DNA of 64,000 nt, from positions 3,224,001-3,288,000 of the forward strand of contig NZ_JUGR01000001.1 in assembly GCF_000800015.1 (NCBI RefSeq), in the 5' to 3' direction. This DNA comes from Terriglobus sp. TAA 43. Its GTDB lineage: Bacteria; Acidobacteriota; Terriglobia; Terriglobales; Acidobacteriaceae. Both the position numbers and the translations under genes were made by a program. The notes under the pieces are model-generated. The model was not told where the DNA came from. It did no database searches and saw nothing but the letters and a program-made list of their open reading frames with translations. This document shows positions 10,280 through 31,204 of the stretch, piece by piece (the stretch's first letter is position 1; each line of letters starts with the position of its first letter).

Positions 10280-13200
10280 GTGAGAGGGAAATTGTTAACT
10301 CCGAACCTTATCAATATTCAGCGTGTACCAGACAGCCTTCTCTCAGGACTCGAAAACAGAGATGCGGCCTTGTGGCTTCGAGATGTTAGTTATACGCCTG
10401 AATCTCTTGATGTATTAGTCCGGTTCCTTCGAATGCCGTGGAAATCGATCACACTCGAAACCCATGACGAGGGGCTCTTGGCAGCGCTGCAATCCGCTGA
10501 GACGTTCAGTGATCCGATGATTCGCAAGAGGGGGTTCATCCAGGTAATCGACAACGATCCTTCGCGATTGACACTTCCTCAACAATGCTTACCTGTCTAT
10601 TTATTAAATGGAAGGTCGAGGCAAGCAAACGATTCGGCCTTTGAGAGCCAGCTTCGCCGGCTGACGATGATTGAGTCTTTGCGGCGTTCTGCACCAGAAA
10701 ACCTTGTCGTTCTTTCTTGGAGCACTCCCCCGATACCGGAGGCACTTTCGGATCTATGGTCGTCCGGCTTCCGTTCATTCCTGACGATCGTCTCTAATGC
10801 AAAAGACGCTGAAGAAGAGGTCAAGAGTTTTGTACAGTCTAGAGCCGGAAATGTAATAGCTAGTCTGCTACTGTCCGACCCAACACCTACAATTCTTGAG
10901 ACAAGTAATCGTTACTACCGAATTTTCCCTGAAGCAAGCCATGTGCTCCGTTTCCGAGAAGCGGATGGATCGCTTCACCAATTGGATGTGGTTGATCTCG
11001 ATGAGCCTGAGAGACCACTTCTTGCCTCCTACGAGCTCATAGAAGAAAAAGACCTATCCCCGCTTCTGCCGTCAGAATTATCCGAAGCAGAGTTCACGAA
11101 TTTCTTCGCCGACTCGAGTCAGTCTTGGCGTCCGTATGCTGCGGAGCTGCCCTGGGTCAAGGATTCAGATGTCAGCACCAAACTGTTGTCCCTTCTGAAC
11201 AGGCTTGATCATCAGGGAGCGGAAGAAACATCGATAGCATACATCGCTGCTGAACCCGGTGCTGGCGGAACCACCCTTGCCCGAGCACTTGCGTGGCAGT
11301 GCGCGAGGTTGGGATATCCCACGCTCTTAGCGAAGCAGATTCCGTTCGTTCCAGAGACTCTGCCTGTTAGGAATTTCCTGACCAAGGTAAACGCCGCTGC
11401 CAACAAGAGTGCACCGACCAAATCTTTCAGCGGCGGAAGTCCGAGAGGTAGAGATGGTTCCAGCCGAAGATATGAAACGCCTTGGCTACTCGTCTTCGAC
11501 ACCATCCATTGGCAGAATCGAGACGCTGAGCTTATCAAGTTCAGAAGAGAAATGGAGAAATCCGGTCGCCCTACCTGCATTTTGGTGGTTTCAGGAAGCT
11601 CGCTTCCGCTCTCGTTTTATACCGCGCCCGACCTACATAAAATTGGCGAGCTGAATCATGCGATAGGCTTTGATGATGCGATACGTCTCGGCGAGCATTT
11701 AAATAAGTTCTTGAAGCCATTTGGTAAAGAGCGTAAAGCCCAGCAATGGGAGTTGTTTTACAGAGAACATAATGTCCGCTACATGGACGGAATAGCAGCA
11801 TTCTGGGTCAGTTTATCGTTCTGGATCCAGGGGCACTATGATCTCAGCGAGTCAATTCAGTCTTGGGTCTATCGCTCTTTCAAAGCTGCTTCTCTTGAGA
11901 GGACCCTCAAAGAGGCCGTACTTCGGATCGCCGCCCTCAGTTCAGAGCGAATCTCTCTACCAGAAACCCTACTTCCGACATCAACTGGTCCCTGGCCGAT
12001 TTCCCATCTACTACGAGATGCCCAGCCTTCCTTAACTCCAATTGGTCTCGTTAGAACTTCGGCTGACGGTGAGAGGTACTGGGGGCTAGTCCATGACATC
12101 TTAGGACGATTCCTAATCAACGCTCTTTTCTATGATTTCGCGGAGCGAAACGATCTCGGTTTCGCACATGCCCAGGATCCTGAACATCTACGCTTTCTGC
12201 TTTTACAGAAAACAGCTCGCGAACCAGCTTTGGGGGAGCGAGCGTACCGAGCGATCGGGGAAGATTTTGCCACCAGTATCTTCAAAATTGATCCGGACCA
12301 TGGACATAGTAACTTCGTGGCAATATGGCCTGATGTTCTTCAGACACTTGATTCGATGCCACGAACACTACGCGATACGAGCAGACTATTTCGCCATCAT
12401 AGTGCAATATCACGACGTCGCATCACTAAGCTTGAAAACCTCTTTTACGGACCTAAGGATTTTGAGAAGAAGCAGCTACTGCATCAGGCGATCGACGATA
12501 TCAGGTACGCACTCGACTTCATCGAGTACACTCCAGAATCCGAACCCAGCCTAAACTTACTTAACTCGTTAGCGAACGCATATTTCGATCTCGCTGATCT
12601 CGAAGCGAGGGACGGAGCAAGCAAAGAAAGGCTTCGCGAACTCAGAGATCTTGCAAATGACGCTACGAGGCGGGCGTTCGCTGAAAGCCCCACGAACTCC
12701 TTCGTAGTCGAGACCTACGTCAAAAATTTACTTCAGAGCGGAAGAACTGACCCTGACCGAGCGGTCGAGAATTCGATTGAGGCACTCGGGGTGCTCTTCT
12801 CCGCGATGAGCACGTACGAACCGGACTATCGTTCCTTGCAACTGGGATCGCTGGCTGATCAGGCTCTGAAGATGCTACTTGACCATACGTCCAAAGATAA
12901 TGGCGAACGGCAGATAAGAACTGCAGTAGACGTTCTAGTTCTTGCTTGGCGCGCATTGTCATTCAGCGGTGAGATGGATGCTCCGAGTATCGCGTTTGAC
13001 ACGATACCGAAGGAAAAGCGAGAACTCGCCTTGAGCTATCTGTCAAACCCGGCGGGACGGGGTAACACACAGGTTCTCCGCCTCACATATCACCTGGTTT
13101 GCGCTAGTAGGCCCTTTGATTTTGGCGCGCAACTAGAGTTGGTAGAGCAACTGGTCGGGACGTCTCTCCGGTCACTCCCTCAGTTAGCGCTCGAATACGC

Positions 13201-13567
13201 CATATTACTCTTCCAGTGCGGCAGAGCACTTGAGGGGAATAAAATCTACAAGGATTTACGTCGGCTTTGGCGTGAGAGCGAGTCTTTTGTGCACGTTCCC
13301 GATCGCTTGAGATGGCTTGTTGATACGCACTCTCATAATCTGAAGATCGTGAACGCAGTCATTTCTTCCGATGACGGATTTAATGTAATCGGACGTGTGC
13401 AAGAGTTTGCGGCTGCGTCCGCACCTCTGAGGCCAGAGGAGTTCAGTATCCGATCCGTAACCCCAGGGCTACGTGTCGCATGTCATGTCTCATTCGGCTT
13501 CAAAGGTCCATTCCTGCGTCCAACTACTGCCGGCCCCGCTGAAGTTAATCAGGTGAGACGTGACTAA
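10280..13567 (+). CDS. SAMD9-like STAND NTPase, candidate defence sensor
   Basis: The 1095-residue protein appears to have four parts. Residues 1-250 are alpha/beta, with VIDNDPSR and LPVYLLNGR, possibly a degenerate SIR2-like domain. Residues 265-310 form a linker (SELSEAEFTNFF, then SWRPYAAELPW). The NTPase domain has a P-loop at 323-335 (AAEPGAGGTTLAR) and a hydrophobic strand ending in Asp at 403-407 (LLVFD). The P-loop lysine position is Gly, giving a GGTT signature like the SAMD9 family as I remember it. Residues about 740-1000 look like helical TPR-type repeats, and the C-terminus (RVQEFAAASAPLRPEEF, VSFGFKGPF) looks like an OB-type beta domain. STAND NTPases sense infection and trigger an effector. 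The next gene, a TOPRIM protein, overlaps by 8 bp. SAMD9 similarity is inferred from motif and layout only. The GTG start is uncertain. Confidence 0.6.
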   Translation: MRGKLLTPNLINIQRVPDSLLSGLENRDAALWLRDVSYTPESLDVLVRFLRMPWKSITLETHDEGLLAALQSAETFSDPMIRKRGFIQVIDNDPSRLTLPQQCLPVYLLNGRSRQANDSAFESQLRRLTMIESLRRSAPENLVVLSWSTPPIPEALSDLWSSGFRSFLTIVSNAKDAEEEVKSFVQSRAGNVIASLLLSDPTPTILETSNRYYRIFPEASHVLRFREADGSLHQLDVVDLDEPERPLLASYELIEEKDLSPLLPSELSEAEFTNFFADSSQSWRPYAAELPWVKDSDVSTKLLSLLNRLDHQGAEETSIAYIAAEPGAGGTTLARALAWQCARLGYPTLLAKQIPFVPETLPVRNFLTKVNAAANKSAPTKSFSGGSPRGRDGSSRRYETPWLLVFDTIHWQNRDAELIKFRREMEKSGRPTCILVVSGSSLPLSFYTAPDLHKIGELNHAIGFDDAIRLGEHLNKFLKPFGKERKAQQWELFYREHNVRYMDGIAAFWVSLSFWIQGHYDLSESIQSWVYRSFKAASLERTLKEAVLRIAALSSERISLPETLLPTSTGPWPISHLLRDAQPSLTPIGLVRTSADGERYWGLVHDILGRFLINALFYDFAERNDLGFAHAQDPEHLRFLLLQKTAREPALGERAYRAIGEDFATSIFKIDPDHGHSNFVAIWPDVLQTLDSMPRTLRDTSRLFRHHSAISRRRITKLENLFYGPKDFEKKQLLHQAIDDIRYALDFIEYTPESEPSLNLLNSLANAYFDLADLEARDGASKERLRELRDLANDATRRAFAESPTNSFVVETYVKNLLQSGRTDPDRAVENSIEALGVLFSAMSTYEPDYRSLQLGSLADQALKMLLDHTSKDNGERQIRTAVDVLVLAWRALSFSGEMDAPSIAFDTIPKEKRELALSYLSNPAGRGNTQVLRLTYHLVCASRPFDFGAQLELVEQLVGTSLRSLPQLALEYAILLFQCGRALEGNKIYKDLRRLWRESESFVHVPDRLRWLVDTHSHNLKIVNAVISSDDGFNVIGRVQEFAAASAPLRPEEFSIRSVTPGLRVACHVSFGFKGPFLRPTTAGPAEVNQVRRD

Positions 13568-17756: not shown

Positions 17757-18224
17757 ATGATATCCACGCAAAAGTCGGATGCTGCAATAGCGGACGAATT
17801 AGCAGCGCTTCCGGCGATGGATAAGCGAAAGCTTCTTAAGGTTTGGGACGAGGTGTATCAAACTCCGCCCCACCATACATTGCGAAAAGAGCTCATTGTT
17901 CCCATCCTTGCGTACCGCCTTCAAGAAGTGGTTCATGGAGGTTTGTCGAACTCTGCAAGACGGAAACTGTTGCTTCTACGTGAGGCACCCCGCAAGCCTC
18001 AAAAGACGAATGTAACCGGTGTTAGCAGTGATTCCGCAGGCAGCACGAAGCTGGTGAGGACGTGGGGTGGAGAAACTCACGAGGTCATCGTGACCGCGTC
18101 GGGCTTCGTCTATCGAGGAGAGACGTTCAAAAAGCTGAGCCCAATTGCGAAGCGGATCACGGGAACACAATGGTCCGGGCCAGCATTCTTTGGCACTCGC
18201 TCTAAGGATCGACGTGATGCCTGA
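17757..18224 (+). CDS. DUF2924 domain protein
   Basis: The 155-residue product matches the DUF2924 pattern: an N-terminal helical part (ELAALPAMDKRKLLKVWDEVY, PPHHTLRKELIVPILAYRLQE), then a small beta part (KLVRTWGGETHEVIVTASGFVYRGETFKKLSPIAKRITGTQWSGPAFFG). DUF2924 genes are found in phage-like elements, almost always just before a serine recombinase, as here. The second part resembles a DNA-binding or recombination accessory domain; its role is not known. The GAGGTGAC ribosome site precedes the ATG at 17757. The stop overlaps the recombinase start by 8 bp, so they are coupled. Confidence 0.85.
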   Translation: MISTQKSDAAIADELAALPAMDKRKLLKVWDEVYQTPPHHTLRKELIVPILAYRLQEVVHGGLSNSARRKLLLLREAPRKPQKTNVTGVSSDSAGSTKLVRTWGGETHEVIVTASGFVYRGETFKKLSPIAKRITGTQWSGPAFFGTRSKDRRDA

Positions 18225-19878
18225 TACGAAGACCGTGCGATGTGCGGTTTACACGCGGAAGTCTTCCGAAGAGGGGCTTGATCAGACGTTTAACTCCCTC
18301 CACGCACAGCGTGAGGCTTGCGAAGCGTACATCCTCAGCCAGAAGCATGAGGGATGGGAAGTCACGCGTACCGAGTATGACGATGGTGGTTTCTCGGGCG
18401 GCAACATGGAACGACCCGGCTTGGCGAAGCTCCTTAGTGACATAGCCGCAAAGCGAATCGATACGGTCGTTGTTTACAAAGTAGACAGGCTCACTCGATC
18501 CTTGGCCGATTTCGCGAAGATCGTGGAGCAGTTTGATCGCGAGGGTGTGAGCTTCGTATCGGTCACTCAGCAATTCAATACGACGAATTCGATGGGGCGT
18601 CTCACGTTGAACGTCCTTCTTTCGTTTGCTCAGTTTGAACGAGAAGTTACTGGCGAGCGTATCCGTGACAAGATTGCGGCGTCGAAAAAGAAGGGCATGT
18701 GGATGGGCGGAGTCGTGCCCTTGGGTTATGACCTGCACGATCGACGTCTGATTGTTCAGGAGGAAGAAGCGGCTCGCGTTCGCCAAATCTTCAACCTTTA
18801 TCTCGAATTAGGTTGCGTCACGAAGCTACAGGGCAGGCTCGATGAACTGGGCATCCGGAGTAAGAAGAGACTCAGCAGGAAGGGACGCAGCTCAGGTGAT
18901 GCGGCATTCTCCCGTGGCGCTCTGTACGAACTCTTAAAGAACCGTATCTACTTGGGCGAGATTCGGCACAAGGACAAGTGCTATCCGGGACAACATGAAG
19001 CGATCGTAGATCAGGCCGTCTGGGATGACGTGCAGACGTTGCTCGTCACGAATCGTCCCTCAGACAATACCCACGAGAGTGACGGTGAGGTCAGCTTGCT
19101 CACTGGGCGTCTATTCGATGCAGCAGGGAATCGCTTCACCCCTTCTCACACGACCAAGCGTGGACGTCGCTATCGTTACTACGTCTCACAAGCGATCATC
19201 CATGGGAATAAGGGAAAAGGCGGATCGATGTACCGTCTCCCTGCTGGACGAATCGAATCGATTGTCTGCGATGGTGTGACAAATCTCATCGGCAATCCGC
19301 AGAGATTGATCGCTATCATTGCGGATCGCCCATCAGATCCCGCTGAGATGAATGCGATCTTAAGATCCTCCGAAAGGTACAAGAGACAACCTCTAGGAAC
19401 ACCCAACATTGCCGATTGTGTGAGGCGGGTCGTTATAGATGAGCGCCATGTGCGCATGTTCATCTGCAAAAAAAACGTGAGGAAAATACTTGGGCTTTCC
19501 TGTGACTCACACATCGACGCGGAGATAGAGATTCAACTACCGGCTGTGCCTATGCGGATTGGTGGAGAGCTTCGGTTCAAGATCGAAGGCGACAGCGAAA
19601 GATCGAGACGAGAAGTTCCGGCGTTGGTTGCCGCGGTTGTGCGGGCGCGGGAATGGCTTGATCGATTGATGAGCGGCGATGTCTCGAGTCAACGTGACCT
19701 GGCCGCGAAAGAGGGCTTGGACGAGCGTTACGTGAGTCGTCTATTACCGCTTGCTTTCCTCTCCCCAGAGATAACAGAAGAGATTCTGGAAGGTACACAA
19801 CCTCCGCATTGGTGTCTCGATACCTTTCTCGGAAACGTTCCTCTTGATTGGCAGGCGCAACGTAAGGCATTCGCGTAA
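18217..19878 (+). CDS. Large serine recombinase
   Basis: The 553-residue enzyme has an N-terminal resolvase domain. Its catalytic region is CAVYTRKSSEEGLDQTFNS, with the nucleophile probably Ser16, followed by VVYKVDRLTRSLADFAKI and FAQFEREVTGERIRDKIAASKKKGMWMGG. A recombinase domain follows, with IFNLYLELGCVTKLQGRLDELG and FSRGALYELLKNRIYLGEIRHKDKCY. A zinc-ribbon-like region and a C-terminal helical part end it. Large serine recombinases integrate and excise phages by cutting both strands at short att sites. Its partner site was not found. I start it at 18217 because that ATG fits the domain start and the overlap with DUF2924. It is the likely mobility gene of the 17757-23230 module and not a tRNA-type tyrosine integrase. 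Confidence 0.9.
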   Translation: MPDTKTVRCAVYTRKSSEEGLDQTFNSLHAQREACEAYILSQKHEGWEVTRTEYDDGGFSGGNMERPGLAKLLSDIAAKRIDTVVVYKVDRLTRSLADFAKIVEQFDREGVSFVSVTQQFNTTNSMGRLTLNVLLSFAQFEREVTGERIRDKIAASKKKGMWMGGVVPLGYDLHDRRLIVQEEEAARVRQIFNLYLELGCVTKLQGRLDELGIRSKKRLSRKGRSSGDAAFSRGALYELLKNRIYLGEIRHKDKCYPGQHEAIVDQAVWDDVQTLLVTNRPSDNTHESDGEVSLLTGRLFDAAGNRFTPSHTTKRGRRYRYYVSQAIIHGNKGKGGSMYRLPAGRIESIVCDGVTNLIGNPQRLIAIIADRPSDPAEMNAILRSSERYKRQPLGTPNIADCVRRVVIDERHVRMFICKKNVRKILGLSCDSHIDAEIEIQLPAVPMRIGGELRFKIEGDSERSRREVPALVAAVVRAREWLDRLMSGDVSSQRDLAAKEGLDERYVSRLLPLAFLSPEITEEILEGTQPPHWCLDTFLGNVPLDWQAQRKAFA

Positions 19879-20041
19879 GCCCACTTACGGATGATGACTA
19901 ATCCTTAACTACTATCATCGTTACTATCATTTGTTTTCCGCGGCTTTGCCTTCATCAATGGCAACGAAGACGGGTTGAAATTTCGCCGCTCAGAGGGGCT
20001 TGACAGCCATCATAGGCTTCTTCTGAGAGGTAAAGAATTTC

Positions 20042-21388
20042 ATGAATGACACAGACACGAAGTCAACATCCAGAAAGCTTGCTCTGGAATATAGACCACT
20101 CGCATCGCTCAATTTTCACGTCAACAACGCACGCACCCACTCGCGCAGTCAGATCCGCAAGATCAAAAACAGCATCGAGGAATTTGGCTTTTCCAATCCG
20201 ATCTTGATCCAGACGGACGGTACGATCATTGCTGGCCACGGTCGCGTTGAGGCAGCCAAGTTACTCAACATGACAACCGTGCCGACGATCTGTCTCGAGC
20301 ACTTAACTCCCGATCAGATTCGCGCCTATGTCATCGCAGATAACAGGCTCGCGGAACTTGCCGGTTGGGACAACGACCTTCTCAAGATCGAGCTCGGTTA
20401 TCTTCTGACTCTCGATCTCAGCCTCGATGTGACGTTGACCGGTTTCGAGGTCCCTGAAATTGACCTTCTACTTGAAGAAGCTTCCAGCACGGCGGACGAG
20501 GAAGAAACCATTCCGCCTACACATCCGGTCGCCATATCTCGACCTGGAGACCTTTGGATGCTCGGACACCATCGCATATTCTGCGGCAGTGCGCTTGAGC
20601 AGAAGTCATTTCAAACCCTGATGGACAGCCGACGTGCAGGTATGGTCTTTGTTGATCCGCCATACAACGTTCCTATCGATGGGCACGCATCCGGCAATGG
20701 GCAGATCGAGCACCGCGAGTTCGCGATGGCGTCCGGAGAAATGGACGAGCACGAGTTCACACAGTTCCTCAATCGCAGTTTCGAGCTTCTTGCCGAACAT
20801 AGCGATTGTGGTGCGGTGCATTTCCTCTGCATGGACTGGCGTCACATGAGGGAGCTGATTGAGGCCGCTAAACCTGTCTATGACAAACAGCTGGGCCTTT
20901 GTGTGTGGGCGAAGGATGTCGGCGGCATGGGATCCCTTTACCGCTCTCAACATGAATTGATCTTCGTGTTCAAAACCAACGGAGGCCCTCACCGCAACAA
21001 CATCATGCTCGGGAAGTACGGACGCAACCGTACGAACGTCTGGCAATACCCGTCTGCAAGCACGATGTCCCGACAGGGTGAAGAGAATCTTCTTAGCTTG
21101 CATCCGACGGTGAAACCAATCGCCATGGTTGCTGATGCCATTCTTGATTGCTCAAAGCGTGGCGACATCGTCCTAGATTCGTTTCTCGGCTCCGGGACAA
21201 CACTCCTTGCCGCGGAACGTGTGGGGCGCATCTGCTATGCGCTCGAGCTTGATCCTCTCTATGTGGATGTTGCCATTCGCCGTTGGCAAGCAATCACTGG
21301 TGAGCAGGCGATCAACGCTGTGAGCGGGCGTGCGTTCGAGGACAACATCATGACGGAAGAAGCGAACGAAGAGGTGATTCATGGCTAA
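20042..21388 (+). CDS. ParB-like domain fused to a beta-class DNA methyltransferase
   Basis: Residues 15-110 form a ParB/Srx nuclease-type domain: RPLASLNFHVNNARTHS, then SIEEFGFSNPILIQTDG, GTIIAGHGRVEAAKLL and IADNRLAELAGWD. Residues 165-430 form an N4/N6 DNA methyltransferase. Its catalytic DPPY lies at 205-208, before the AdoMet site FLGSGTT (381-387), which gives the beta-class order. HPTVKP (354-359) is also typical. Phage-borne fusions of this kind usually protect element DNA from host restriction. The recognition sequence is unknown. No restriction gene is paired with it here, so it is probably an orphan methylase. The ATG at 20042 follows a GAGAGG-type site. The end overlaps the DUF5681 gene by 8 bp. 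Confidence 0.9.
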   Translation: MNDTDTKSTSRKLALEYRPLASLNFHVNNARTHSRSQIRKIKNSIEEFGFSNPILIQTDGTIIAGHGRVEAAKLLNMTTVPTICLEHLTPDQIRAYVIADNRLAELAGWDNDLLKIELGYLLTLDLSLDVTLTGFEVPEIDLLLEEASSTADEEETIPPTHPVAISRPGDLWMLGHHRIFCGSALEQKSFQTLMDSRRAGMVFVDPPYNVPIDGHASGNGQIEHREFAMASGEMDEHEFTQFLNRSFELLAEHSDCGAVHFLCMDWRHMRELIEAAKPVYDKQLGLCVWAKDVGGMGSLYRSQHELIFVFKTNGGPHRNNIMLGKYGRNRTNVWQYPSASTMSRQGEENLLSLHPTVKPIAMVADAILDCSKRGDIVLDSFLGSGTTLLAAERVGRICYALELDPLYVDVAIRRWQAITGEQAINAVSGRAFEDNIMTEEANEEVIHG

Positions 21389-21791
21389 CCAAGATGACAG
21401 CGATTATGAAGTTGGTTACGGCAAGCCACCGCGGCATTCGCAATTTCGTCGCGGACAATCGGGGAACCCTGCCGGGCGCCCACCGGGACGGAAGAATCTC
21501 GCAACCATAGTCCGGGCCGTGCTCCACGAGGAGATCATTGTGACGGAGAACGGCAAGAGCAGAAAGGCGACGAAGGTCGAGATAGTCATTGCCCAGATGG
21601 TCAATGGAGCATTGAAGGGGGATCAGCGTGCCATAAGGGAAACGATTGCACTCAAGCGGTACGTCGATGCGCTTGAAGAGGTCGATGCGGTGCCTACCGA
21701 AACCGAGAGTGACGCGGCTATTATGGCAAGTCTCAAACGTCGCTTACAACGTGCAACCAACTCGAACACCGAAAAGGAGACCTCAAAGTGA
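21381..21791 (+). CDS. DUF5681 protein, probable small-terminase-like factor
   Basis: The 136-residue product has the DUF5681 signature YEVGYGKPPRHSQFRRGQSGNPAGRPPGRKNL, followed by a helical part with VTENGKSRKATKVEIVIAQMVNGALKGD. These proteins sit directly before terminase large-subunit genes in phage-like elements and may act as the DNA-recognition small subunit; that role is inferred from position. It overlaps the methylase by 8 bp upstream. Its stop TGA is at 21789-21791, at the terminase start. An AAGGAGA ribosome site for the next gene lies at its end. Confidence 0.85.
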   Translation: MANQDDSDYEVGYGKPPRHSQFRRGQSGNPAGRPPGRKNLATIVRAVLHEEIIVTENGKSRKATKVEIVIAQMVNGALKGDQRAIRETIALKRYVDALEEVDAVPTETESDAAIMASLKRRLQRATNSNTEKETSK

Positions 21792-23230
21792 TGGCTACCG
21801 GAGACCTGGAACTTTCAGCTGAGGAACTTCGGGCGATGCTCCGAGTCGATCTCTACACGTTCATTGAGCGCGCTTTCAGTGAAATACATCCCGGCACTGA
21901 ATTTCTCGAGAGTCAGCACATTCCTCTGATTGCCGCGAAGCTTCAGGAGTGCGTAGAAGGGAAGTGCAAGCGTCTCATCATCAACCTTCCTCCGCGCTCA
22001 TTGAAGTCATTCACTGTCAGCGTGGCATTCGTAGCTTGGCTACTCGGCAGGAATCCTTCGAAGCAGGTGATCTGTGCGAGCTACGGCCAAGACTTGGCCG
22101 ACAAGCTTGCGCGTGACTGCCGCACGGTGATGTTGTCCCCTTGGTACAAGAGATTGTTTCCAAGGGCTCAGATCTCCGGGAAAAGAAACGCCGTGAATGA
22201 CTTCAACACCACTGCCAGCGGAGGGAGAATGGCCACCTCCGTTGGGGGCACGCTGACAGGACGAGGAGCGGACTTCTTGATTCTTGACGATCCTCTCAAA
22301 CCCATCGACGCTCTCTCAGAAACCAGCCGTAAGGCAGCCAACGATTGGTTTTCGAATACTCTGTTGAGTCGCCTTAACAGCAAGAAGGATGGTGTGATCA
22401 TCATCGTGATGCAGCGTCTCCATCAGGACGATCTCGTTGGCCACGTACAGTCTCTTTCAGAATGGGAGGTGCTCTCACTCCCAGCCGTCGCTGAAATGGA
22501 CGAGAGCATCACCATTGAAGGGCCTCTTTGGCCCGTTCACTTTTCTCGTTCTGCTGGCGAAATACTCGAACCGCGCCGCGACACCCCTGAGGCGCTCGCC
22601 GCAATACGGGATCAGATCGGCCCCTTCAATTTCAACGCACAATATCAGCAGGATCCGATACCAGAGGGTGGCAACATCATCCTGGAAGAGTGGTTGCGTA
22701 TCTATGAAGAGAACACACTCCCGATGCGACCTCTAATACTCCAGAGCTGGGACACCGCGAACAAGAGCAGCGAGCTATGCGACTTCAGTGTCTGCACGAC
22801 ATGGGCAATTGTAGGGAAGAAGCGTTACCTTCTGAATGTACTGAGAAAGCAGCTTAATTATCCAGACCTCAAGAAACTGATTGTCAGCCACATGAAGCAG
22901 TGGAACGCAACCCAGGTCATCATCGAAAATCGCGCTTCAGGGATTCAGCTCTGTCAGGATCTCAGGGCAGATGGCATCTTTCAGGTCAAACCCTATGACC
23001 CGCCTGCTGGCTCAGACAAAATCATGCGCGTTCATATGCAGACTCCCGAGTTCGAGGCGGGGAATGTGCTTTTGCCGAAGTCGGCTCCATGGCTCGACAC
23101 GTACGTGAAGGAGCTGCTCAGTTTTCCGGGCGGTAAGTATGACGATCAGGTCGACTCGACCATGCAAGCACTGGACTATGCAAAGAGATTCCATGAGCTC
23201 AATACCTGGGCGATGCTGGGGCGAAGCTAA
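21788..23230 (+). CDS. Phage terminase large subunit
   Basis: The 480-residue protein has the two terminase domains. The ATPase has a Walker A NLPPRSLKS (66-74), the neighbouring VICASYGQDLADKLARDCR region, a Walker B LILDD (164-168) and MQRLHQDDLVGH. The RNase H-like nuclease has SWDTANKSSELCDFSV, IIENRASGIQLCQDL and the late acidic KYDDQVDSTMQALDY. Such enzymes cut concatemeric phage DNA and pump it into the capsid. Either GTG at 21788 or ATG at 21791 could start it, both behind AAGGAGA. No portal, protease or capsid gene follows, so the module is a remnant or depends on a helper phage. Confidence 0.9.
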   Translation: MMATGDLELSAEELRAMLRVDLYTFIERAFSEIHPGTEFLESQHIPLIAAKLQECVEGKCKRLIINLPPRSLKSFTVSVAFVAWLLGRNPSKQVICASYGQDLADKLARDCRTVMLSPWYKRLFPRAQISGKRNAVNDFNTTASGGRMATSVGGTLTGRGADFLILDDPLKPIDALSETSRKAANDWFSNTLLSRLNSKKDGVIIIVMQRLHQDDLVGHVQSLSEWEVLSLPAVAEMDESITIEGPLWPVHFSRSAGEILEPRRDTPEALAAIRDQIGPFNFNAQYQQDPIPEGGNIILEEWLRIYEENTLPMRPLILQSWDTANKSSELCDFSVCTTWAIVGKKRYLLNVLRKQLNYPDLKKLIVSHMKQWNATQVIIENRASGIQLCQDLRADGIFQVKPYDPPAGSDKIMRVHMQTPEFEAGNVLLPKSAPWLDTYVKELLSFPGGKYDDQVDSTMQALDYAKRFHELNTWAMLGRS

Positions 23231-23602: not shown

Positions 23603-24265
23603 ATGAAAACTGTCTTGAGAACCCTTCTGGTCATCATCCTTACTGTCATAGCGGTTTATGCCTTCTTGATTTGGTACGGCGAGGACAACGACTCAAACAC
23701 TCACAATGCAAGAGTCAGCGGACATCCCGCAGACGTTGTGACCAGTCACTCCCAAAATGCGAATCAGGTGGTTAAGCCGTATGACCTCGCTCGCAATCCA
23801 TACATGCTCAACGGCCAACAAGCGGTTCTCACTACCAGAGGTATACCAATGGTCGATCGACTCGGACGCTTTCAGGTAGAGTTCCCATTCAACTCGCTTC
23901 GATATTCCAATATGATCGACGAAAATACTGCGATCTACGATGTACTCATTGGAGAGGACACGATCTCCGATTTCGGTGGCCAGATTGCGGTTCACCTAGC
24001 AACGGATTCTCCGAAGCCCGAGTTGGGCCGACCTTGGCGGGTAGTGATTCAACGTCCGATGCGCGTTGTGAATGGCCTCGGTGTAGAACGTAACATCGCA
24101 ACTGTTAGCTTCCAGGGGTACGGCACCCTGCCTGCGCCCCCGCAACCTAAGACACCACAACCTCAAACTCCACGACCTACGGATGCGGAACAACCTGAAG
24201 TCCAAACTGCTCCCCCGCCGCACTCCGACGGAGACCAGCCCAGCGAAATTCAAGAAGAACACTGA
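23603..24265 (+). CDS. Membrane-anchored protein with a proline-rich tail, unknown function
   Basis: The 220-residue product has an N-terminal membrane anchor (TLLVIILTVIAVYAFLIWYG, about residues 7-26), a soluble domain of about 130 residues and a low-complexity end. The soluble part contains NPYMLNGQQAVLTTRGIPMV and DVLIGEDTISDFGGQIAVH. The end (residues about 180-215) is rich in Pro, Gln and Thr (LPAPPQPKTPQPQTPRPT). The folded part recalls small OB-type or SH3-like exported domains, but I cannot name a family. It is divergent from the XRE repressor and may be under its control. Confidence 0.6.
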   Translation: MKTVLRTLLVIILTVIAVYAFLIWYGEDNDSNTHNARVSGHPADVVTSHSQNANQVVKPYDLARNPYMLNGQQAVLTTRGIPMVDRLGRFQVEFPFNSLRYSNMIDENTAIYDVLIGEDTISDFGGQIAVHLATDSPKPELGRPWRVVIQRPMRVVNGLGVERNIATVSFQGYGTLPAPPQPKTPQPQTPRPTDAEQPEVQTAPPPHSDGDQPSEIQEEH

Positions 24266-24555: not shown

Positions 24556-26733
24556 TTACTTGAGTTGAAAAGCTAATTGCTGTCTGGTACGAGGGGGATG
24601 GCCTTTCGGCGTCAGGCTATGGCTACGCATCCAAGCAAGCCATCGCCGAAGCAGGGCTGGACTGAATCGCTCCTTTGAGCGGTGCCAGTTTTCGCGAACT
24701 TCATGGATGACTTCGTCATCGGTTGGTATCTGGCCATCGATGAGGAAGTCGTTCCAGGCAGCGAAGAGCGTGGTGATGATCTCTGCCTCTTCGGTTTTCT
24801 TGTCCGCGAACAGGTTCAGCAGGCGATCAAATTCGGCTTTCTGACTGCCGAGGACTGTGATGGCTTCTTCAGCTTTGGCCTTCAGAGCTTTCTTTGGGGA
24901 GTATTCAATCTTGCTGCGGCCATTGTTGAAAATCTTCTCGGTTACCGCGAACCAGTCGGTGCGTGTTCCCAAGCCCTCGAAGTCCTGCATCCAGGGGTCC
25001 CAAGGACCGGCAGCTTGGCGCATGGGCCGCCAGCCCAGTGGTAGCCCCAGGTGCGTCTCCGCGAGGTAGCAAGCTTTCATCAGCATCACCCTACCGAAAC
25101 TCGGATTTCGTGAAAGGTGTTCAATGGCGTAACAGCCAATCGCTGCGCGCTGCGACGCGCGGTCGATAATGTCAGCGGTGGGATGCAGAAGTTCATGAAT
25201 CACAGCATCGAGCAGTTGCGTCGCCTCCATCTGCGATGAGCGGAGCTGGGTATCCAGTTGATTGACCAAGATCATCAACCGGTCGACCTTGGCAACTATG
25301 TGACGTTGTTCTTCGAGTGTGGGCAAAGGCATTTCAAACGAGTTGATCTTCCCAAGGTAGAGGCACGGTTGCGCACTTTGCTTGACATTACCCCACACTA
25401 GAGACTGTCCCTCGGGGCTCCGCAGGAAGAGCTCTAGATAAGAAGGCAAAACGAGTTTTTCATTCGGACGGATTAGCGCAACACTACGAACCAAGACCAT
25501 ATCTGGAGGGTCCTGAACCAGGCAGATCCGTCCGGTTGTTGCTCCAACACAAACCATCAATATGTCATTATGTCGGGGTTTACATCTCCTCCAGCATCTC
25601 TCGGCTGTATCCGAAGCAACCCAATCCGTCTTGGTCAAATCGAGAAATCCGTCGCGAATGTTCTTCGCTGTCGCCAAAGGGATCCCTTCACTGACACGCT
25701 GGGGAGTGGCGTGCTCACCATCAGTGATTTGAAGGCAGATGCTGTTCAGAGTGACTCTAGGCCAGGTTGCGATTCCTGCGAGAAGTTTCGAAAGATGTCC
25801 TTGAATGCCTGCACTGAGGACAGCTTTGCGGAGATCCGTAGAGGAAACGGAATACGAGGGATGGAAGAGGAAATTGAGATTGGCTTGGGAAGGGGAATGG
25901 TAAAAACGAGCGATGGCTGCGTGGCTCAGCGCGGAATGCTGCCTCTCCCGTTCCTTCTGTTGCGCCTCTAGCCGTTCACACAGCGCCATCAACCCTTCAA
26001 CCCTGGCCACAATTCGTTTCTGCTCTTCTACTGGCGGAAGTGGCAGACTAAGCATTCCGACGAGTTTCATGTTCAAGCCACGACGTTGCTCATGCCCGGT
26101 AATCTCACGAATAGCACGATAGCGGCTTCGCAGATTCCAGAACAGAAATTCAGGGAGTAGGTGATTACGTGAATAAGGAATCATCGCAACCAGAGACTGA
26201 TTCAAAGCAGCTTCGATTCTCAAGAGTGCTACAGTTGCTCTGGTCTTTCCTTGACCGTTCAGAGCAATCAACACAGAATCTTCTGGGATCAGCTTGCAAT
26301 TGCTATTTGCTATCCCTCGTTCGGTAATGCGCCCCTCGCACTCAAATATTTCTCCTCGATTGATGTCTCCGGAAAGCAGCCAACGCGTATTACCCCCAAA
26401 ATTACGTGGCTCCGTCGTGCTTGGGGTTGCTCCGGTTTTTAGATCGCATACATCGCTGATAGCGCAACGATGCCAGGAGTTTGGTAATTCACAATCATCT
26501 CCAGCGGTTTCCCAGTCCTTAGCCGCGACCAAGGAGGTTTTTGGGGAATTCAGTTGCTTAGCTCTTGCCTCCTGAATTGCGTTGAATACTTTAGAACCAT
26601 TCAATTCATTTGAATCTTGCTCAACGAGCTTAGCGCTCATTGCCAAGCGCAAAACGAGGTCCCGCATCTTTGCCACTGCATCAGGGGCGTCCGCGAACTG
26701 GTCGAATTTCTCGAAGAATATTTCCAGTTTCAT
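24556..26733 (-). CDS. hsdS: Type I restriction-modification specificity subunit HsdS with a C-terminal extension
   Basis: HsdS chooses the DNA target of the type I complex. The 725-residue product has a helical N-terminus (MKLEIFFEKFDQF, RDLVLRLAMSAKLVEQ), the first target-recognition domain (about 80-225, LPNSWHRCAISDV to LNMKLVGML), a central conserved region (LPLPPVEEQKRIVARVEGLMALCERLEAQ) and a second recognition domain (about 330-465). A second conserved region (MPLPTLEEQRHIVAKVDRLMILVNQLDTQ) follows. After this the usual subunit ends. Here about 190 further residues follow, with RVMLMKACYLAETHLGLPLGW and AAGPWDPWMQDFEGLG, resembling a DUF4065/Panacea-type fold. I start it at 26733, where ATGA overlaps the hsdM stop; the open frame reaches 67 codons further upstream inside hsdM. 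Confidence 0.9.
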   Translation of the reverse strand: MKLEIFFEKFDQFADAPDAVAKMRDLVLRLAMSAKLVEQDSNELNGSKVFNAIQEARAKQLNSPKTSLVAAKDWETAGDDCELPNSWHRCAISDVCDLKTGATPSTTEPRNFGGNTRWLLSGDINRGEIFECEGRITERGIANSNCKLIPEDSVLIALNGQGKTRATVALLRIEAALNQSLVAMIPYSRNHLLPEFLFWNLRSRYRAIREITGHEQRRGLNMKLVGMLSLPLPPVEEQKRIVARVEGLMALCERLEAQQKERERQHSALSHAAIARFYHSPSQANLNFLFHPSYSVSSTDLRKAVLSAGIQGHLSKLLAGIATWPRVTLNSICLQITDGEHATPQRVSEGIPLATAKNIRDGFLDLTKTDWVASDTAERCWRRCKPRHNDILMVCVGATTGRICLVQDPPDMVLVRSVALIRPNEKLVLPSYLELFLRSPEGQSLVWGNVKQSAQPCLYLGKINSFEMPLPTLEEQRHIVAKVDRLMILVNQLDTQLRSSQMEATQLLDAVIHELLHPTADIIDRASQRAAIGCYAIEHLSRNPSFGRVMLMKACYLAETHLGLPLGWRPMRQAAGPWDPWMQDFEGLGTRTDWFAVTEKIFNNGRSKIEYSPKKALKAKAEEAITVLGSQKAEFDRLLNLFADKKTEEAEIITTLFAAWNDFLIDGQIPTDDEVIHEVRENWHRSKERFSPALLRRWLAWMRSHSLTPKGHPPRTRQQLAFQLK

Positions 26734-30554: not shown

Positions 30555-31111
30555 CCGTTAGCCTCGGCTGCGTATACCGCACACCGTCTATTGATTGGCA
30601 AAGACTCGAATCGCGGCGAAGGGCTGCAACCCGCGTGAAAGTTCGGGACAAGTTCAGTTGTTGCACCGAAGCATGATTTTATAGACATAATTCGGTTAAC
30701 GTCTTTAAGACTACCTAGACAAAATGAGGCGTGGCGATGGCTAAGGACAGCATATCGGGCACGCGTGTGAACCAGGAGGCGCTCGCCACAGACAAGTGGC
30801 ACATACGCCTCTGTACGCTGCGACCCGGGAGGCTGTATCTCTCGATAGGTTCGCCGTCAACACGACTCTAATGTCAGAGTCGCGAGTTACAAAGAGCTTC
30901 GTGCTGCCTAGTGCCACTTTTGTGGCATAACTTATGGTTTTTCGCGAGAGAGAGAAACAAAGCAGAGCCTGCGTGGCGGAGAGACAGGGATTCGAACCCT
31001 CACCGCAAATCCCAACGATCTACTCTCTCGAGTAGAACTTCGTCCCTGCCAGCGCAAGTGTTGGGCAGAAACTACGTTTCCTGGGGAAAGAGAAAACAAA
31101 CTGAGACTGAG
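30555..31111. other. Non-coding region between hsdR and tRNA-Ser, holding a tRNA 3'-end copy
   Basis: No supported protein gene. The frames here are short, and the one at 30911-31144 is only the translation of two tRNA 3' ends. The hsdR promoter must lie here; a TATAAA-like box occurs on the minus strand near 30680 but without a clear -35. The diverged tRNA-Ser 3' end at 30974-31000 marks a probable attachment site. Confidence 0.6.
30974..31000 (-). repeat. Diverged copy of the tRNA-Ser 3' end (probable att site)
   Basis: TGGCGGAGAG followed by ACAGGGATTCGAACCCT repeats the CCA end, acceptor strand and T-arm of the tRNA-Ser at 31112-31138, with changes in the T-stem that keep it base-paired. 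Similarity also extends beyond the tRNA 3' end to about 30930, because GAGAGAAACAAA and similar words recur before both copies. The two copies are 138 bp apart, in direct orientation. It is either the end of an integrated island or a second, truncated tRNA-Ser. Confidence 0.65.
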
Positions 31112-31204
31112 TGGCGGAGAGTGGGGGATTCGAACCCCCGATAGAGCTTTTGACCCTATAACGGTTTAGCAAACCGCCGCCTTCAGCCACTCGGCCAACT
31201 CTCC
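31112..31204 (-). tRNA. tRNA-Ser (anticodon GCT)
   Basis: The minus strand folds into a class II tRNA. The 7-bp acceptor stem is GGAGAGT/ACTCTCC, and the discriminator G is followed by an encoded CCA (31112-31115). The D-arm has TGGCCGAGTGGCTGAAGGC. The anticodon stem-loop GGTTTGCTAAACC has anticodon GCT. A long variable arm and a T-arm with GGTTCGAATCC complete it. It reads serine AGC/AGU codons. The 3' end faces left, toward the accessory half of the window. Confidence 0.95.

Follow-up and report, generated by a model that had tools for sequence, protein, structure and literature searches.

Type I restriction systems and toxin-antitoxin systems are usually viewed as separate defences that are merely co-located. 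The C-terminal domain (CTD) of the EPEC DarG alone binds DarT and neutralises it in vivo (PMC7003065), and the Panacea antitoxin domains act by binding their partner, a GPV motif in them being functional (PMC8832971). According to PMC12255303, darTG2 separates hsdS from hsdR in EPEC, and likewise in 12 of 54 type I systems linked to RptR. This arrangement, the RRDM island of E. coli, resembles the locus reported here in its related hsdM, hsdR and M48 genes and in having a DarG-type domain right after the HsdS core, but its HsdS has no tail, and the antitoxin has a gene of its own accompanied by that of the toxin, or DUF262 genes are found instead. In the accessible portions of PMC8832971, PMC10440598, PMC12170906, PMC7003065, PMC12255303 and PMC11109961, no HsdS is described as carrying a domain of the DarG or Panacea type. 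In a limited literature search neither the link between DarG and Panacea nor the HsdS tail was found, and searches for YwgA and for specificity subunits fused to antitoxin domains gave nothing relevant.

In this study we analysed a stretch of 64,000 nucleotides from Terriglobus sp. TAA 43, called the window below. It carries hsdR, hsdM and hsdS in head-to-tail order with no gene inserted among them (Table 1), and the next open reading frame (23603-24265, plus strand) has no Pfam match. The reading frame of hsdS is open and uninterrupted, and its product has the TRDs and the HsdS fold of a type I specificity subunit, with hsdM and hsdR as neighbouring genes. A Pfam search finds Methylase_S in two stretches confined to the core, and a structural search with the core model matches the solved S subunits 7vru_C, 1yf2_A, 2y7c_A and 5ybb_D. 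In the full-length model (pLDDT 86, pTM 0.59) the last core helix comprises residues 473-516. The protein consists of a canonical S subunit of type I followed by a globular tail of 207 residues.

Table 1. Restriction genes of the window and landmarks of the HsdS tail (positions in the window)
Feature	Position	Strand	Details or basis
hsdS	24556..26733	-	725 aa + stop; ATG overlaps hsdM stop; Methylase_S E 2.1e-24
HsdS canonical core, aa 1-518	25180..26733	-	two TRDs and two helical conserved regions
hsdM, 486 aa	26730..28190	-	N6_Mtase, HsdM_N
hsdR, 786 aa	28194..30554	-	HSDR_N, ResIII, EcoEI_R_C
C-terminal tail, aa 519-725, DarG-CTD/Panacea-superfamily domain (wHTH-like core + helices)	24559..25179	-	alignment, model, profiles
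Invariant Lys, tail residue 35, helix 2; aligns with invariant Lys of DarG CTDs	25075..25077	-	tail alignment, profile comparison
Signature RxAAGPxD, tail residues 54-61; GP common to DarG CTDs and Panacea	24997..25020	-	alignments
Invariant Glu, tail residue 133; aligns with invariant Glu of DarG CTDs	24781..24783	-	alignments
Conserved WNDxL, tail residues 142-146; W142, D144 and L146 invariant in 46 tails	24742..24756	-	alignment
W-x3-K, tail residues 165-169; aligns with W-x3-K of DarG CTDs	24673..24687	-	alignments

An earlier sequence-only reading of this DNA had claimed an extra C-terminal domain on HsdS, of about 190 residues at 24556-25150. The domain was borne out by a confident model and by 48 further loci, its extent being slightly longer than proposed (Table 1), and the quoted motifs are present, CYAIEHLS at residue 534 and AAGPWDPWM at 574, with LMKACYLAE at 551. 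The alternative it had named, a known helical extension of HsdS, is rejected in its plain, coiled-coil-only form, for the tail following helix 473-516 is a globular alpha/beta domain, whose AlphaFold model, built from an alignment of 46 tails, has a mean pLDDT of 95.4 and a pTM of 0.91. This alignment was restricted to tails matched over more than 150 residues, supplied by the window and by 45 of the 48 loci from the scans described below, and shows a mean column identity of 42% with 13 invariant residues. The tail had no significant family match in Pfam, NCBIfam or PHROGs, nothing significant among PDB sequences by sequence search and no match in phages by tblastn. It is matched by the C-terminal parts of three PADLOC profiles, namely positions 600-790 of 792 in PDLC03196 (Specificity_I, E 3e-44), positions 514-700 of 708 in PDLC03039 (MTase_I, E 2e-26) and the C-terminal part of PDLC03088 (Specificity_I, E 9e-21). 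Tail-bearing proteins are thus already in the PADLOC library, where they are filed solely as type I subunits and the domain is not named. Fusions of HsdM with the tail, which PDLC03039 suggests, remain putative, since none among the 43 matches listed from 299 genomes reaches the tail part.

Regarding the kinship of the tail, Foldseek ranks the DarG chains of 7yk3, the M. tuberculosis DarTG complex, at the top (E 0.014 and 0.020, probability 1.00 and 0.99), with no match at E <0.001. VIA-align aligns the tail model with 7yk3 over 170 of 207 residues (Z 14.6, rmsd 4.3), followed by winged helices of the PadR/MarR type at Z 5.5-7.0. A profile of 11 DarG CTDs finds 7yk3_B with E 4.6e-38, confirming the identity of this chain as the C-terminal domain. 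By hhalign, the 46 tails match these 11 DarG CTDs at full length (probability 97.6, E 3.2e-12, 171 columns) and 8 Panacea domains over 116 columns (probability 92.7, E 4.3e-7), the latter match covering the first two thirds of the tail, with no similarity reported over the last third. The DarG score is 83.3 against a maximum of 21.6 for 100 column-shuffled targets and 13.3 for the reversed target; the corresponding values for Panacea are 50.5, 18.7 and 13.5. Compared directly, the DarG and Panacea profiles match weakly (probability 27.7, score 30.2 against a shuffled maximum of 22.1). In searches with single models, the tail HMM matches the DarG-like proteins L072 (E 4e-11) and L075 (E 9e-12), as well as L061 (E 1e-5), a member of PF13274 above the Pfam cut-off. 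The DarG model NF048014 matches two free-standing tail relatives in its CTD part only (E 6.8e-8 and 2.5e-7) and gives no match with the window tail alone, and the Pfam Panacea model PF13274 matches 1 of the 46 tails below threshold (E 0.058), the window tail being unmatched.

It is the Foldseek rank, the VIA-align Z and the profile comparisons that carry the assignment to DarG, the identity between tail and DarG CTD being 16%. At the residue level, K35, G58, P59, E133, W165 and K169 of the tail align with identical conserved residues of DarG; the GP, invariant in all 46 tails, lies on strand 58-60 and is followed by x-D where the GPV of Panacea has V. The tail belongs to the DarG-CTD/Panacea superfamily, with DarG as its closer kin and Panacea related by remote homology, so that the Panacea likeness proposed by the sequence-only reading stands in this remote form and yields first place to DarG. 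The resemblance to the DarG CTD extends to the fold, to profile homology over the whole domain and to the K, GP, E and W-x3-K positions, but the tail protein has no macrodomain (there is no Macro match, and its N-terminal part is Methylase_S) and is fused to HsdS, the RxAAGPxD and WNDxL signatures are specific to the tails, and the window genome has no DarT partner. With SocA and other Panacea proteins (PF13274, DUF4065) it shares about 116 columns that include the conserved K and GP, but it falls below the Pfam threshold and is apparently not part of a two-gene toxin-antitoxin pair.

The tail is a single copy in the window genome and occurs in 5 of 396 genomes of the same phylum, this genome counted; in one of the five (G313) it is free-standing, with about 190 residues, behind an HD-domain-like open reading frame recognised by eye. 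In a second phylum 7 of 398 genomes match, one of the seven with a DarG and one with a free-standing frame. The search for other HsdS proteins with this tail, suggested by the earlier reading, was fruitful: a motif-based scan gave 45 tail loci in 84,980 genomes and IMG/VR three more on viral contigs, and these 48 further loci extend across many phyla, mostly on the HsdS of complete R-M-S systems. With the window included, the HsdS core is in the same frame as the tail in 44 of 49 loci, the other five being short frames at a contig edge (L013, L038, L046) or inside a contig (L021, L049). Both hsdM and hsdR accompany the tail in 29 of the 31 loci whose flanks reach 5 kb or more on each side; L014 has neither gene and L021 has hsdR only. 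Two tail contigs, L030 and L046, come from one archaeal bin, Syntrophoarchaeum, an assignment that is by bin only and may reflect contamination. Free-standing relatives were also observed. A tail-like protein on a Tunicatimonas plasmid (L006:6737-7543) has in its vicinity a multiubiquitin/ThiF cluster as well as a DNA methyltransferase and a helicase that belong to another type of restriction system, and a relative of 188 aa (L005:1435-2001), which matches the DarG CTD model, comes directly after an HD-domain-like protein, an arrangement that may resemble the YwgA/YwfO pair of B. subtilis.

The distribution of the tail among related systems indicates a movable module. HsdS normally ends after its second conserved region, as the sequence-only reading had held: the tail is in none of 20 same-phylum loci whose HsdM is related, 19 of them informative at the 3' end. 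These were 20 of the 27 non-own HsdM matches; hsdS of L175 is cut by the contig end, and the informative L161 has an N run within hsdS. The closest tail-less cores end within a few residues of the point where the window tail starts. An HsdM tree was built from 67 rows, of which 40 carry the tail and 27 lack it; it excludes loci with an HsdM match of 380 aa or less and is a non-random sample, the tail loci having been sought via the tail. On this tree presence changes at least 6 times, with starred branches forcing 4 of the changes, and shuffled labels give 21.4. Tails 62-64% identical occur on HsdS cores only about 22-26% identical. Among the pairs listed, L024 and L027 share 64% in the tail, 23.5% in HsdR and 26% in the HsdS core with no HsdM match counted (no blastp match over 60% of the shorter protein), and L030, from the archaeal bin, has 63% in the tail and 24% in HsdR with the same L027. 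In a Mantel test on the 35 loci having all three parts, the Spearman correlation of distances is 0.62 between HsdM and HsdR, and 0.30 and 0.36 between the tail and HsdM or HsdR, respectively. Within the subgroup of the window the tail is less conserved than HsdM and HsdR, L007 being 87% identical in HsdM, 78% in HsdR and 52% in the tail. This HsdM identity of 87% is to Thiobacillus (L007, L015), of another phylum, with tails only 52-55% identical; by these identities the window system was probably transferred, with hsdS recombining as a unit of its own.

The tail is under purifying selection: its dN/dS is 0.05-0.38 in all 14 pairs, in each of which the TRD-bearing core differs more in amino acids, and these ratios reject a decaying relic. 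The 45 + 3 loci, the 42% column identity with 13 invariant residues and the low dN/dS place the tail beyond chance. On these computations we are highly confident that the tail is a discrete, mobile domain of the DarG-CTD/Panacea superfamily, which has been grafted onto the C-terminus of a type I HsdS, behind the final conserved helix of that subunit.

The sequence-only reading had proposed that the tail could protect a toxin or sense tampering with the complex. A partner of this toxin kind did not turn up, and a search of the window genome gave no match to DarT, DarG or Panacea. DarT is present in 3 of 44 tail genomes and in 4 of 100 baseline genomes, which is no clear enrichment and rejects DarT as the general partner. 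Eight of the 29 complete wide-flank loci, window included, have no internal R-M-S gap above 200 bp, and the accessory clusters elsewhere, named from one or two members each, are YhcG nuclease (11 loci), YgjP metallopeptidase (10), RhuM (3), DUF4357 (3) and KilA-N (1). Since the accessory genes differ and some loci are gap-free, no single neighbour gene is the partner. Closely similar tails also sit on unrelated HsdM, HsdR and HsdS, so a surface of HsdM or HsdR that is particular to one family is an improbable partner.

By analogy with its kin, the reading that we favour, tentatively and at less than even confidence, is that the tail would be a tethered protein-binding arm of the antitoxin type, as in DarG and the Panacea antitoxins, and would have its partner elsewhere than on a family-specific surface of the HsdM or HsdR subunit. 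Held at the restriction complex by HsdS, the arm would bind a separate partner and keep it inactive, most plausibly a toxic enzyme acting on nucleic acids whose restraint would be tied to the presence of the complex; for the window, this partner would be encoded away from the operon. Counting against it are the lack of any toxin partner in the searches and the faster evolution of the tail relative to HsdM in the subgroup of the window (52% against 87% identity); moreover, the wHTH-like core could bind DNA instead.

Two other readings are both rather unlikely in our view. The tail might be a built-in regulator, restraining HsdR or controlling R2M2S assembly until foreign DNA is met. The presence of both hsdM and hsdR in 29 of the 31 wide-flank loci, the compact operons without extra genes, that of the window among them, and the filing of the tail-bearing PADLOC profiles as Specificity_I and MTase_I agree with such a role; but among the pairs listed, tails 62-64% identical go with HsdR at about 23-24% and with HsdM below the match threshold, tail distances correlate less with those of HsdM and HsdR (0.30, 0.36) than the latter two do between themselves (0.62), and related systems exist without the tail. 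Alternatively, and with similarly little confidence on our part, the winged-helix core might contact DNA, either beside the target or as looped or translocating DNA. DNA is common to all systems and would fit a conservation independent of the RM parts, PadR/MarR wHTH chains form the second-best structural class, and the median net charge of the 46 tails is +4; against this, the closest kin are antitoxins that bind proteins, wHTH scores below Z 8 may reflect a mere common arrangement, and the net charge ranges from -18 to +15. An acidic DNA mimic is disfavoured by the same median, in a weak test since DarG CTDs reach only -1; Deep et al. in 2023 reportedly described ssDNA mimicry by DarG.

A third reading, which we hold to be quite improbable, sees the tail as a SocA-like arm that would deliver restriction complexes to the ClpXP protease, as a restriction alleviation built into the system. 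A universal protease would explain the RM-independent conservation, but the tail is also found in the archaeal bin (L030 and L046, bin contamination being possible), and archaea are not known to have ClpX. SocA, a Panacea protein, brings its toxin to ClpXP (PMC8832971) and the alleviation of EcoKI restriction uses ClpXP (PMC11109961), but the Panacea antitoxins tested needed neither ClpXP nor Lon (PMC8832971).

The genes behind hsdS bear on where the tail may have come from. In 2 of the 49 loci (L009 and L030) darT-darG follows the tail gene directly; the L009 system is a closer relative of that of the window, and in L030 Pfam finds DarT with E 1.8e-61 and Macro with E 2.2e-27. The same slot was compared in six E. 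coli loci, with darTG in four (where the annotation gives a frameshift for one darT and for one hsdS) and DUF262 genes in two, and the intact E. coli HsdS proteins tested (n=5) are 412-457 aa long and have no tail. On a second HsdM tree, which beyond the exclusions of the first drops L010, L045, L046, L051, the window and some members of its subgroup (L007-L009, L014, L015, L037, L047 and L048) and leaves L183 uncounted, four tail-less E. coli HsdM nest among tail-bearing systems with starred support. Among the 10 DarG loci above the family cut-off, type I parts are close in two (L065 and L103), neither with a tail, and the gene order of L065 is hsdS-darT-darG-hsdR. At L183:208-2248 (also in L100), an hsdS broken in TRD2 ends in residues like the C-terminus of DarT and is followed by an open darG with no darT, apparently a natural deletion that joined the broken hsdS to the last residues of darT. 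The repeated occurrence of darTG after hsdS marks the site behind hsdS as one where such cargo settles, and the tail may plausibly have arisen by the capture of a DarG-type domain at this site. That the tail serves anti-addiction or immunity, neutralising DarT-like or other toxins of invaders and perhaps descending from a darG captured behind hsdS, is very unlikely, for although darTG lies exactly after hsdS in E. coli, L065, L009 and L030 and E. coli systems lacking the tail fall, with starred support, within a group of tail-bearing ones, the 16% identity to the DarG CTD makes any capture old, tail genomes have no excess of DarT, and L009 and L030 retain a full DarG as well.

Other features of the window concern the surroundings of the restriction operon. 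The operon ends right beside two copies of a sequence like the 3'-end of tRNA-Ser, at 30973-30999 and 31111-31137, the second being the end of tRNA-Ser(gct) (31112-31204, minus strand), with further copies elsewhere in the genome; this arrangement looks like an island attachment site. The genes at 18145-23230 encode a large serine recombinase, a ParB-like/DNA methyltransferase fusion, a phage-type open reading frame and a terminase large subunit, and this segment is a prophage-like remnant adjoining the restriction system. Within the same lower-GC stretch, the gene at 10280-13567 encodes a protein of 1095 aa with inactive-sirtuin and novel STAND NTPase 7 domains and is likely a defence gene.

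For the family as a whole, it is possible, though doubtful, that these loci form a scattered class of type I systems with an exchangeable antitoxin domain on HsdS, perhaps derived from toxin-antitoxin cargo that landed behind hsdS, which would couple restriction to a second, conserved partner outside the RM subunits, a held toxin or a universal host factor, such that losing or disarming the complex would have a further consequence. Here, an antitoxin-type domain is built into the DNA-reading subunit, has been swapped between unrelated systems and is retained by selection, and the DarG, Panacea and HsdS tails are joined in one homology picture. Should the partner of the tail be a toxin or a host factor, restriction would be directly and physically connected with abortive defence or with restriction alleviation.
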